The notes below the pieces were generated by a model. The model was not told the origin of the DNA and ran no database searches. It saw only the letters and a list, made by a program, of their open reading frames with translations. From Crocinitomicaceae bacterium (GTDB lineage Bacteria > Bacteroidota > Bacteroidia > Flavobacteriales_D > Sanyastnellaceae): 63,073 nt of DNA. Numbering within the stretch: position 1 is the stretch's first letter; each line of letters starts with the position of its first letter. The stretch lies in assembly GCA_002693775.1 (NCBI GenBank), contig NZRP01000051.1:18284-81356 (forward strand). Reading direction: 5' to 3'. Positions 15,734-20,193 of the stretch are shown here, piece after piece. A program made the position numbers and the translations under genes.

Positions 15734-16675
15734 ATGAAGAATATAATCTCTCTAATTATTGCAGTTTGTTGCTTACTTATTTCTCAGAAGGCTATAGCCC
15801 AAACTAACATCAGCTTCAAACTATCCCACCAATTCAATGGAGCTATAGCTCAAGAAGGTCAAGTTTACTCTATACAAGGGGCAGCATTTTCTTACGAGAG
15901 AATTCAATACTATCTCAGCAACTTCGTTATTACTCACGATGAAGGTCAAGTAACTGAATTGGGCGATTTAGTTTTTCTTGTTGATTCAGACCACGGATCC
16001 ACTTATGATTTGGGATCTCATCCTATCTATCATGTAGAGCAAATAGAATTCAGCGTGGGTGTGCCTGAGCATCTAAATCACCTTGATCCTTCTACATATG
16101 AGTTAAATCATCCTCTAGCTCACCATAATCCTTCAATGCACTGGGGTTGGACTTCAGGATACAGATTTCTTTGCTTGGATGCTCACTCTGCTTTAGACAT
16201 AGTCCAAATCCATGCATTAGGCGACGCCAACTACTACTCACAAACTCATGAGATAAACCAAACCGCCAATACAGTAAGCGCAATTGAAATCAATTTCGAC
16301 GCTAACTATGATCAGATTCTAACTGATGTGAGTGTAATTGGAGGAGTATTCGAGCACTCAGAAACAACTCCCACAATTGTTCAAGCATTAGAGAACATGC
16401 AGAACCTTGTTTTCTCGTACTCAGTTGCAAGCACAGATGACCTTTTGGATCAACCTTCAATAAATATTTACCCTAACCCCGCTACTTCTTTTATAAAAGT
16501 TGAAGGAGCTCAACAGGGCGATATAATCAAGGTCATTGATGTAAATGGTAGAGTAGCATTGTCAGAAGTCTTTGTAAGTGCTACTCTAGATGTATCAGAT
16601 ATAGAAGCTGGAGCATATACTGTTGTAGTTGAAGGTGTTTCTAACAAGCAATCAAGGCTTTTAATTCTAAGGTAA
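15734..16675 (+). CDS. MbnP-like copper-associated protein with T9SS sorting domain
   Basis: A 313-residue secreted protein. Residues 1-23 are a signal peptide; residues 25 to about 215 match the MbnP family: an early YERIQYYLSNFVI segment, then HHNPSMHWGWTSGYRF (residues 130-145), which holds His, Met and Trp residues at the place where this family has its conserved copper site and modified tryptophan. The last 75 residues are a T9SS type A sorting domain (IYPNPATSF, VIDVNGR, closing in LLILR), so the protein is probably released or displayed at the surface. It is directly followed by its MbnH-like partner. The 219 bases upstream (15515-15733) are non-coding with no clear promoter match. Confidence 0.82.
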   Translation: MKNIISLIIAVCCLLISQKAIAQTNISFKLSHQFNGAIAQEGQVYSIQGAAFSYERIQYYLSNFVITHDEGQVTELGDLVFLVDSDHGSTYDLGSHPIYHVEQIEFSVGVPEHLNHLDPSTYELNHPLAHHNPSMHWGWTSGYRFLCLDAHSALDIVQIHALGDANYYSQTHEINQTANTVSAIEINFDANYDQILTDVSVIGGVFEHSETTPTIVQALENMQNLVFSYSVASTDDLLDQPSINIYPNPATSFIKVEGAQQGDIIKVIDVNGRVALSEVFVSATLDVSDIEAGAYTVVVEGVSNKQSRLLILR

Positions 16676-17680
16676 GTGACAGCTAAGTCAGTAGGATTTC
16701 TTACACTTCTGTTTGCAGTTATGGTTTCTTCTTGCGGAACAAGACAGCCAGAGGCTGAATTTCCTTGGCTTGAAACTCCCAGCCATTTCCCTGAAATAAA
16801 CCACCCAGATGATAACGAGTTAAGCCTTGCTCGTTGGGAGCTAGGAAAACGTCTTTTCTTCGAGACAAAACTCTCAGTAGACGGAAGCAAAAGTTGTGCT
16901 TCTTGCCATTTTTCAGAATCTGCTTTTGCAACCAACTTCCCCACCAATAAAGGAGCATTTGGGGCTGATGGTACTCGTAACTCACCATCTCTTGCCAACA
17001 TAGGCTACCATCCTTATTTCACGAGGGAAGGAGGGGTGCCAACTCTAGAAATGCAAGTACTTGTCCCCATACAAGAAGAGGACGAGTTCCACAATAACAT
17101 CCTTGCCATTGCTGACACATTAAGTCAAGACTCCACATATGTTGTGGCTTCTCTTAATGCCTACGACTCAGAGATTACTCCCTTTGTTATTACTCGTTCC
17201 ATATCAGCTTTTGAGCGAACACTAATCAGCGGAGGTTCTCTTTACGATAGATTTCTTGCAGGCGACTCAACAGTGTTGTCTAATTCAGAACTCAGTGGTT
17301 TAGAAGTGTTCATATCTAAAGGCTGCTCCAACTGCCACAACGACTTCCTTTTAACCAACTTCGAAATCATTAATAACGGTCTTTATGAAGAATACTCGGA
17401 CCCAGGTCTTTTCAATTTAACTGGCAATACAGAAGACATAGGAAAGTTCAAAGTCCCTTCTCTTAGAAATGTCACCATTACATATCCCTACATGCACGAT
17501 GGTTCATTAGCTACTTTAGATGATGTTTTTGATCACTACGTCTCTGGTGGAAGCTCGCATCCCAATAAGTCAGAATTAATTACACCTATATCTCTCTCAG
17601 AGGAAGAGCGATCAGATTTGAAGGCCTTCTTTGAAACTCTCCGAGACAACTCTTTTATTGAGTGGTCGTCTAGCCTGTAA
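16676..17680 (+). CDS. MbnH/MauG-like diheme c peroxidase lipoprotein
   Basis: A 334-residue diheme protein. Lipobox VSSC (Cys20) predicts a lipoprotein. Two c-heme motifs are present, CASCH (74-78) and CSNCH (217-221). Other family landmarks are NSPSLANIGY, YFTREGGVPTLEMQ and FKVPSLRNVTITYPYMHDGS, where His274 or Met273 could be a distal ligand. The family includes bacterial cytochrome c peroxidase, MauG and MbnH; pairing with an MbnP-like gene points to MbnH, which in a methanotroph oxidises an MbnP tryptophan to kynurenine. The GTG start follows the MbnP-like stop with no gap. I would not exclude ordinary peroxidase activity. Confidence 0.85.
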   Translation: MTAKSVGFLTLLFAVMVSSCGTRQPEAEFPWLETPSHFPEINHPDDNELSLARWELGKRLFFETKLSVDGSKSCASCHFSESAFATNFPTNKGAFGADGTRNSPSLANIGYHPYFTREGGVPTLEMQVLVPIQEEDEFHNNILAIADTLSQDSTYVVASLNAYDSEITPFVITRSISAFERTLISGGSLYDRFLAGDSTVLSNSELSGLEVFISKGCSNCHNDFLLTNFEIINNGLYEEYSDPGLFNLTGNTEDIGKFKVPSLRNVTITYPYMHDGSLATLDDVFDHYVSGGSSHPNKSELITPISLSEEERSDLKAFFETLRDNSFIEWSSSL

Positions 17681-17761
17681 TTCTGCTGGATAATTATTTG
17701 AGGATTGAACTTCTGATAATACATCGTTGAGTTATAACTTGACCATTGAAAATAAGTAGCA

Positions 17762-19345
17762 ATGAATTTTAAGAATAAATTAAGAGCTGTGTTTGTTTTG
17801 GCCTTAGCCTCTTTATCAGGGCAAGCCCAAACCTTCCATGAAGACATCGCACCCATCATTTACGACAACTGCACAAGCTGTCACAGAGTGGGCGAAATAG
17901 GGCCTATGCAATTCACTACCTACGATGAAGTGAGCTCGCAGGGTTCATTCATCGAATACGTGATTAACTCAGGCATCATGCCACCATGGACGCCTGACCA
18001 CAACTACCAAGAATTCTTAGGTGAGCGTTACCTGACTGAAGATGAAATTGCATTATTCTCTGATTGGGTTGCTGGCGGTATGCCGGAAGGAAACCCAGCA
18101 AATAACCCCGGCCTACCTGAATTTCCTGACGGCAGCCAAATCGGCGAACCCGACCTCGTACTCGAGATGACGGAACCATATGTGCACACAGGGGACGGAA
18201 CGGAGCAGTACCAGGTGTTTGTTCTGCCTACTGGTCTTACTGAGGAGAAGGAGGTAAGAGCTGTAGAAATACGCCCAGGAAACAGCAATATTGCGCATCA
18301 CGGTCTTGTAGGTTACACAAGTAACCAGAATTCAATAAATCAGGCTATTGCTTTGGATGATGCGACAGAAGATCCTGGTTATGAGAACTTTGGTAGTTAT
18401 GGTGTGATAGTAGAAGATGATCTTTTTGGCGGGTGGGCTCCAGGCATTGAGGCTTTGTCTTTCCCTGAAACAATTGGCAAAAAGATGGCGCCTGATTCGT
18501 ATCTTCTTCTTCAGATGCACTATGGCGGAAGTTTAGTTGATGAGTCAGACCTTACTAAGGTTAATGTGTTCTTCCACGACGTACCCATTGAAAGAGAGGT
18601 GGAGACTTACTTGATGAGCCCTGAAAACTTGAATGAGCCTTTTTACATTCCAGCTAACCAGGAGGTGAGTTTCCACGGTTCATTCTACGTGTCAAATGAC
18701 GTTAGTTTGATTTCTGTGATTCCTCACTCGCACCTGCTTGGAAAGTCTTGGTATTCTTATGCGACTTCTGGGGATAATCAGGATACTATTCCAATTATAT
18801 CTATCCCTAACTGGGACTTCCACTGGCAGGGGATTTTCACTTACCCAACATTGAAGCATATTCCAGCTGGCTACACAGTTCACGCAATTGCTGAATACGA
18901 TAACACGGTTAACAATCCCTACAACCCCAATAATCCTCCACAGCCGATGTGGTTTGGCGACTACACAACAGATGAGATGTATGTGATGTTCTTCCAGTAT
19001 GTAAACTACTTGCCGGGAGACGAGAATATCAGCATTTCCAACGTTGAGGATGTAGAGCTGGTATATGGTGAGAGTCAGCTGTTCCCGGTTTGGCCTAATC
19101 CAGCCTCAGCTAATTCAACTGTGTCTATAGGCTTCCATGTCCCCGAAAGTGGGGAAGAAGTAAGCATAGATTTATATGACATTACTGGAAAGCATTTAGA
19201 TACTTGGCTTAATTCTGCCAGCTACCCTGAGGGCTATCATCTAGTGAGGCCTCATCTGGGTGATCTTACAGTTGGCTCATATGTGTACAGATTGACTACT
19301 TCTGGCGGTTTCAGCGCAAGCAAGACGCTTCAGGTAGTACGATAG
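17762..19345 (+). CDS. Heme c / PHM-type dicopper monooxygenase fusion with T9SS sorting domain
   Basis: A 527-residue secreted protein. It has a signal peptide (1-22), then an N-terminal c-type cytochrome domain with CTSCH at 37-41 and the following MPPWTPD segment, then a region matching the copper type II ascorbate-dependent monooxygenase family. Likely copper ligands can all be placed: H179 and H180 (IAHHGLVGY), H253 (LLLQMHYG), H322 and H324 (PHSHLLGK) and M406 (TTDEMYVMFF), in the same order as peptidylglycine hydroxylating monooxygenase. The last 85 residues are a T9SS sorting domain. It probably hydroxylates an extracellular substrate with electrons delivered through its heme; the substrate is unknown. 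It lies 81 bases downstream of the MbnH-like gene. Confidence 0.82.
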   Translation: MNFKNKLRAVFVLALASLSGQAQTFHEDIAPIIYDNCTSCHRVGEIGPMQFTTYDEVSSQGSFIEYVINSGIMPPWTPDHNYQEFLGERYLTEDEIALFSDWVAGGMPEGNPANNPGLPEFPDGSQIGEPDLVLEMTEPYVHTGDGTEQYQVFVLPTGLTEEKEVRAVEIRPGNSNIAHHGLVGYTSNQNSINQAIALDDATEDPGYENFGSYGVIVEDDLFGGWAPGIEALSFPETIGKKMAPDSYLLLQMHYGGSLVDESDLTKVNVFFHDVPIEREVETYLMSPENLNEPFYIPANQEVSFHGSFYVSNDVSLISVIPHSHLLGKSWYSYATSGDNQDTIPIISIPNWDFHWQGIFTYPTLKHIPAGYTVHAIAEYDNTVNNPYNPNNPPQPMWFGDYTTDEMYVMFFQYVNYLPGDENISISNVEDVELVYGESQLFPVWPNPASANSTVSIGFHVPESGEEVSIDLYDITGKHLDTWLNSASYPEGYHLVRPHLGDLTVGSYVYRLTTSGGFSASKTLQVVR

Positions 19346-19362: not shown

Positions 19363-20193
19363 TTAATCATCAACGAGGTCGAAGAAGGTTTGCTTGAAAA
19401 AATCAAGGTGCTCAATAATTGACTCTCTCCAATAGGGCCAGTTATGGGCACCTTTTCTTTCTGAGTATATGTAGTTGTAGTGCTTCTCCTTTAGGACTTT
19501 ACTAAGCGATCTATTTGCTTCAAGGAAAAAGTCCTCTGTACCGCAGTCTACGATGAATCGCCAGCTACCTGTCTTTCTTGATTCTGATTCGCTCTCAGCG
19601 ATGTAAACCACGCTGTTTTCCTCCCAATTGCTATAGTGTTCAGAGTGATTTCCCAGGCGCAGAGGAATTTCCCAATTTCCAGGAAAGGGCCTAAGGTCTA
19701 CGCCGCCACTCATACTGCCAGCTATTGAAAAGACTTCAGGGTTTCTTAGACTTAGATACATGGCTCCGTGTCCACCCATGCTGAGTCCTGTTATAGCCCT
19801 ATTGTTGATGTGAGGCTGTGTTCTGTAGACTCTGTCCACTGTTGGGACTAATTCGTCAATGATGTAACTCTCGTACTTCATTGTGCTGTCTATGGGGCTA
19901 TCTAAGTACCAGCTTGTTTTTTCTCCATCAGGACAAACGAAAATAAAGCTATATGCTGAAGCAAGACTGTCTAACTCTGGAACACGTCTTAGCCAATTTC
20001 CATAGTCTCCACCAGCTCCGTGTAGAAGGTACACGACAGGGTAATACCACTCGCTTTCTTCATAATTGTCAGGAAGGATGACTGTACTTCCTATGCTCTT
20101 CTGCATAGTATCGCTGAACACCCACAGTGTGTCTACTCTAGCACTAAGTTGAGCTGAGTATAAAAGCGCTATTGATAGATATGCTAATCGCAC
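19363..20193 (-). CDS. Secreted alpha/beta-hydrolase esterase
   Basis: A 276-residue protein of the putative-esterase (D, S-formylglutathione hydrolase-like) family. A short signal peptide is followed by VVYLLHGAGGDYGNW, the nucleophile S138 in GLSMGGHG, an acid in IVDCGTEDFF and the histidine in KGAHNWPYW. It could be a carbohydrate esterase or other carboxylesterase acting in the periplasm. The GTG start at 20193 overlaps the end of the CotH gene by ten bases, and the three genes 25568 to 19363 probably form one transcript. Confidence 0.85.
   Translation of the reverse strand: MRLAYLSIALLYSAQLSARVDTLWVFSDTMQKSIGSTVILPDNYEESEWYYPVVYLLHGAGGDYGNWLRRVPELDSLASAYSFIFVCPDGEKTSWYLDSPIDSTMKYESYIIDELVPTVDRVYRTQPHINNRAITGLSMGGHGAMYLSLRNPEVFSIAGSMSGGVDLRPFPGNWEIPLRLGNHSEHYSNWEENSVVYIAESESESRKTGSWRFIVDCGTEDFFLEANRSLSKVLKEKHYNYIYSERKGAHNWPYWRESIIEHLDFFKQTFFDLVDD

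Follow-up and report, generated by a model that had tools for sequence, protein, structure and literature searches.

A T9SS-tailed MbnP and an MbnH-family diheme lipoprotein lacking the interheme tryptophan are encoded side by side in a Crocinitomicaceae bacterium

We found that two abutting genes in a 63,073-nucleotide stretch of Crocinitomicaceae DNA (contig NZRP01000051.1; the whole stretch is called the window below) form a unit whose probable product is a secreted protein that binds copper at a site created by oxidation of one of its own tryptophans. Gene 1 (15734-16675, + strand) encodes a 313-aa MbnP-family protein. Gene 2 (16676-17680, + strand), whose GTG start abuts the gene 1 stop codon with a 0-base gap, encodes a 334-aa MbnH-like diheme lipoprotein of a clade, H1, that is without the interheme Trp. 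After a gap of 81 bases follows gene 3 (17762-19345, + strand), which encodes a 527-aa protein with a cytochrome c, a copper monooxygenase region like that of PHM and dopamine beta-hydroxylase (DBH), and a T9SS tail. These three open reading frames were confirmed where a sequence-only reading had placed them. That reading, which named the first two products MbnP-like and MbnH-like and joined all three genes into one system, did not contain the point we consider worth following, namely the Trp-less MbnH paralogue.

The family assignment of gene 1 is borne out by both sequence and fold. The protein consists of a Sec signal, an MbnP domain (residues ~24-201) and a T9SS type A tail (residues ~245-309), and it scored 87.6 bits against Pfam MbnP (PF20243; cut-off 27) and 37.9 bits against Por_Secre_tail (cut-off 27). 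The T9SS type A sorting domain TIGR04183 was matched by 14 of 15 relatives, and with this C-terminal domain the protein is predicted to be exported as type A cargo. An AlphaFold (AF2) model built from 78 sequences reached a pLDDT of 90.9, and a fold search with it returned MbnP of Methylosinus trichosporium (7l6g) as the only structure with a weighty match (Z 17.4, 200 aligned residues, rmsd 2.5; next entry Z 4.7). A phmmer search of the PDB with the window MbnP alone retrieved no MbnP, where the fold search succeeded. Judged by this predicted structure, gene 1 is a true MbnP. It nevertheless falls below the TIGR04052 equivalog cut-off (47.8 bits against a curated 140), and the mature protein has one Cys instead of the four-Cys motif of that family.

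The candidate metal site lies in an M-H-W-G-W motif (16136-16150, + strand) comprising M135, W137 and W139, numbered as the sequence-only reading had numbered the two tryptophans. W137 is the kynurenine candidate, and M135 is a candidate copper ligand, as is His160 (16211-16213, + strand). M135, W137 and W139 were each conserved at 1.00 in 41 sequences gathered by whole-protein search without a motif search; in a second set of 80 loci, for which the motif itself seeded the search, their invariance is partly the result of selection. The Met, both Trp residues and His160 are common to lipoprotein MbnPs as well, in which His160 is likewise invariant. A mixed profile placed the motif opposite GMAWNW of 7l6g, albeit weakly (E 0.017). 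In 7l6g it is reportedly the first of the two WxW tryptophans that has become kynurenine, and the other Cu(I) ligands are reported to be His, Met and solvent.

The pairing of the two genes proved to be conserved. An MbnH-family gene accompanies the secreted MbnP at 78 of the 80 named loci and, in the set drawn from relatives of the window, at 37 of 40, mostly with gaps of 0-20 bases, and three of the five exceptions in the two sets are loci cut by a contig end. Cultured relatives that carry the cassette include Phaeocystidibacter luteus (L095/L123) and Cryomorpha ignava (L128). A 2013 paper (PMC3621798) had already noted how widespread the MbnP/MbnH pair is outside methanobactin producers, and the proposal of the sequence-only reading that the pair serves a use unrelated to methanobactin is thereby supported. 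None of the papers that we searched treats MbnP in Bacteroidota, and the term 'metallo-mystery pair' gave no match among them. The genome that contains the window also holds a second pair, consisting of a lipoprotein MbnP and a Trp-bearing MbnH (G000:C3:6798-8574, L001). Some loci (L059, L113 and L145) carry at least three MbnH-family genes or fragments each. Three contigs with secreted MbnPs of Bacteroidota type, L073 (PBNL01000029.1), L082 and L083, stand under the titles Euryarchaeota, Rhodospirillaceae and Poseidoniaceae, and these records are probably mislabelled or misbinned MAGs.

Gene 2 was confirmed as a member of the MbnH family. Its product matched Pfam CCP_MauG with 137.5 bits, its best solved relative is 6e1c ('Di-heme enzyme', E 2e-47), and its lipobox Cys20 is 97% conserved. 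The two hemes are bound at C74-H78 and C217-H221 (motifs CASCH and CSNCH), and the sixth-ligand position carries Tyr288 (17537-17539, + strand; conserved in 122/123), not Met, as is typical of the MauG/MbnH type. This residue is equivalent to the heme ligand Tyr294 of MauG, and the 17 residues from Pro271 to Tyr288 equal the distance from Pro277 to Tyr294 in MauG. The peroxidatic pocket, Q127/P131/E137, has the spacing of Gln103/Pro107/Glu113 in MauG, and equivalents of these residues have been described in MauG and BthA (PMC6405878). In contrast, the interheme position occupied by Trp93 in MauG is taken by Arg117 (17024-17026, + strand), which in alignments faces the Trp of both the N. europaea peroxidase 1iqc and 6e1c. 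Against the MbnH equivalog TIGR04039 (cut-off 362.85) the protein scored 233.6 bits; a Trp-bearing homologue of the other clade, H2, is likewise under that cut-off, at 237.1 bits.

When 154 MbnH-family proteins, taken from the loci of secreted and of lipoprotein MbnPs, were placed in a tree, they split completely into two clades with a support of 1.0, and gene 2 fell in H1. The interheme Trp is present in 76 of 76 H2 proteins and in 1 of 78 H1 proteins; among H1 proteins from secreted-MbnP loci it occurs in 0/65, and Arg takes its place in 60/65. P131, E137 and both hemes are kept without exception in both clades and Q127 nearly so, and H1 also retains T269/P271. Tyr at position 288 is found in all H2 proteins and in 64 of 65 H1 proteins from secreted contexts, but in only 8 of 13 from lipoprotein contexts. 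The sole Trp-bearing member of the H1 clade (L179, 3454-4476) has Ile at its Tyr-ligand position.

We propose, and think it reasonably likely, that the window encodes an MbnP/MbnH-type cassette in which the H1 enzyme oxidises W137, a Cu(I) site forms and the T9SS exports the MbnP. MbnP would reach the periplasm by Sec and fold there. The lipoprotein MbnH homologue, supplied with peroxide (or with O2 and electrons), would turn W137, the first Trp of MxWxW, into kynurenine, and this residue would join M135, H160 and a ligand from the solvent to complete a Cu(I) site. MbnP would then pass in its folded state through the T9SS to the surface or the medium and bind copper there, for acquisition or buffering, as is thought for MopE/CorA in methanotrophs. 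Cargo of the T9SS is already folded when it crosses the outer membrane, and lipoboxes are present on the diheme proteins; the simplest order of events would therefore be that W137 is oxidised in the periplasm and the protein is exported afterwards. CorA and MopE, secreted or surface kynurenine copper proteins encoded next to a MauG-like protein, offer a precedent (PMC3912023). What speaks against this reading is that the local enzyme is without the interheme Trp that MauG needs; the sub-cut-off equivalog scores of both proteins and a window in which no copper gene of the kinds searched was detected weigh on the same side.

The absent Trp gives rise to the best-surviving alternative, which is that H2 proteins make the kynurenine, here in trans, and that H1 proteins are auxiliary, relaying electrons, scavenging peroxide, serving for docking or oxidising some other residue. 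The strict contrast in interheme Trp between the clades favours this. In MauG the residue has been reported to be necessary for making TTQ and for stabilising bis-Fe(IV) (PMC6405878). The distribution of the genes can be read in the same way: among 73 loci whose full-length MbnH genes were tallied, both kinds occur at 47, usually side by side, 17 have H1 only and nine H2 only. At the window locus only H1 is present, and H2 lies elsewhere in the genome with the lipoprotein MbnP; all 12 H1-only genomes checked have an H2 elsewhere. The presence of H2 elsewhere weighs little, however, because almost every genome of the order has MbnH-family genes (116/120 relatives). Moreover, the H1-only and the H2-only loci share the MbnP motif, and we found no MbnP residue that separates H1-only, H2-only and H1+H2 loci. 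BthA, which is Tyr-ligated and has Ser at the interheme Trp position, yet forms bis-Fe(IV) (PMC6405878), so loss of the Trp does not by itself exclude a competent H1. We therefore regard the assignment of the oxidation to H2 as possible but doubtful. In the window's genus, H1 was found in only the two of eight genomes checked that have a secreted MbnP and not in the six others, which speaks for the cassette.

Beyond oxidation of W137 by H1 as we propose it, a bolder and rather unlikely idea is that two enzymes share the maturation of MbnP in Bacteroidota, with Trp-bearing and Trp-less paralogues both acting on MxWxW; the Trp-less enzyme would itself be competent to oxidise protein Trp, its hemes exchanging charge without the relay residue considered necessary in MauG, and a second modification, at W139, might result. 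If kynurenine is formed as proposed, kynurenine copper sites would be a common feature of secreted Bacteroidota proteins, reached via the T9SS, and not a speciality of methanotrophs. The H1/H2 pair would then let nature itself show whether long-range protein oxidation depends on the interheme Trp, a question already raised by BthA.

The involvement of copper was assessed by scanning the fetched flanks, up to 8 kb on each side, for CopA-, CusA/B- and CopZ-like genes. Such genes were present at 28 of the 80 named secreted-MbnP loci across the phylum and at 0/20 control loci (Fisher p 0.0007), the controls being a small set of different taxonomic make-up, drawn from around the monooxygenase. Among close relatives the link is weak (4/41 vs 0/20 controls, p 0.29), and no CopA-, CusA/B- or CopZ-like gene was found in the window. 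These results support copper for the family and less so for the window genome. A Cys-rich HYC_CC_PP protein is encoded at 25 of the 80 named loci, usually just upstream of the secreted MbnP (for example L090, 7473-7937, and L128, 7242-7805), and is a candidate partner of MbnP; it was not found beside the window MbnP.

The product of gene 3 is, as had been noted, a heme c protein related to the PHM type. It bears a CTSCH heme motif, and its matches to Pfam are weak when it is searched alone (Cu2_monooxygen E 0.003, Cu2_monoox_C E 0.035), but a profile of 17 family members reached DBH (E 9e-5) and PHM (E 1.6e-4). The candidate copper ligands H179, H180, H253, H322, H324 and M406 are invariant in the 17 relatives. 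A model of gene 3 built from only two sequences had a pLDDT of 31 and was discarded. T9SS tails had been ascribed to both gene 1 and gene 3; the former stands, whereas that of gene 3 scored 21.7, under the cut-off of 27, yet 13 of 17 family members match. The sequence-only reading saw in the three genes a joint surface copper oxidation system in which the diheme protein would mature MbnP, the monooxygenase or both, and could point to the short gap, the shared strand, the tails on genes 1 and 3, and the likelihood that MbnP and the monooxygenase are both copper proteins. When co-occurrence of the three families within 5 kb was checked in related genomes, the neighbourhood was not conserved. A monooxygenase homologue occurs in 30 of 40 secreted-MbnP genomes, but within 5 kb of the secreted MbnP in only 2/40, the window and congener G012 (L033/L073), and the single case among the 80 named loci is that same congener. 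There the gene order MbnP-MbnH-monooxygenase is kept, but 3 kb and an 828-aa hydrolase-like gene intervene. The monooxygenase is also found in 9 of 12 other congeners, those without a full-length secreted MbnP, and it has recurrent neighbours of its own: an esterase (19363-20193 in the window), a BNR protein, CotH and a redoxin-like gene. Given the rare adjacency, the separate occurrence and these neighbours, the triad was ruled out as a conserved unit and is better described as a local neighbourhood, and we consider a joint three-gene system very unlikely.

The redoxin-like protein, which has no Pfam match, is encoded beside the monooxygenase in nine loci (L158 9223-9864, L163, L165, L166 and L169 among them). 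Loci of the genus such as L153 (5827-7910) have two cupredoxin/multicopper-oxidase-like proteins near the monooxygenase, one of them with a T9SS tail, and these are possibly its real copper partners. As for a reading in which MbnP serves at the surface in metal binding or as a structural element, an ordinary peroxidase travels with it and no Trp is modified, the motif tryptophans could indeed be structural, but the Tyr in place of Met at the sixth-ligand position, the strict pairing across the phylum and the motif shared with the solved MbnP make it highly improbable.

Compared with known systems, the cassette most resembles the MbnP/MbnH pair of M. trichosporium (7l6g; TIGR04052/TIGR04039, the 'metallo-mystery pair'), with which it shares the fold, MxWxW, the conserved His and a neighbouring diheme partner whose ligand position is occupied by Tyr. 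It differs in its T9SS tail, in having one Cys against the four-Cys motif, in the absence of methanobactin genes, and in a local MbnH without the interheme Trp. Like MopE/SACCP and CorA/CorB of methanotrophs, it places a secreted or surface protein beside a MauG-like diheme protein, the kynurenine copper site known there being a candidate here. MopE and CorA are not markedly similar to MbnP in sequence (PMC3621798), their site consists of two His and Kyn, and the T9SS is not involved. With BthA of Burkholderia, gene 2 shares the Tyr ligand and the lack of the interheme Trp (Ser257 in BthA; PMC6405878); unlike BthA, which has Lys444 for calcium, H1 keeps the calcium-site residues N102, T269 and P271, and it sits in MbnP loci. 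Gene 3 resembles PHM and DBH in the two-copper ligand pattern HH...H...HxH...M and in the distant profile match, and differs from them in its N-terminal cytochrome c and its T9SS tail.
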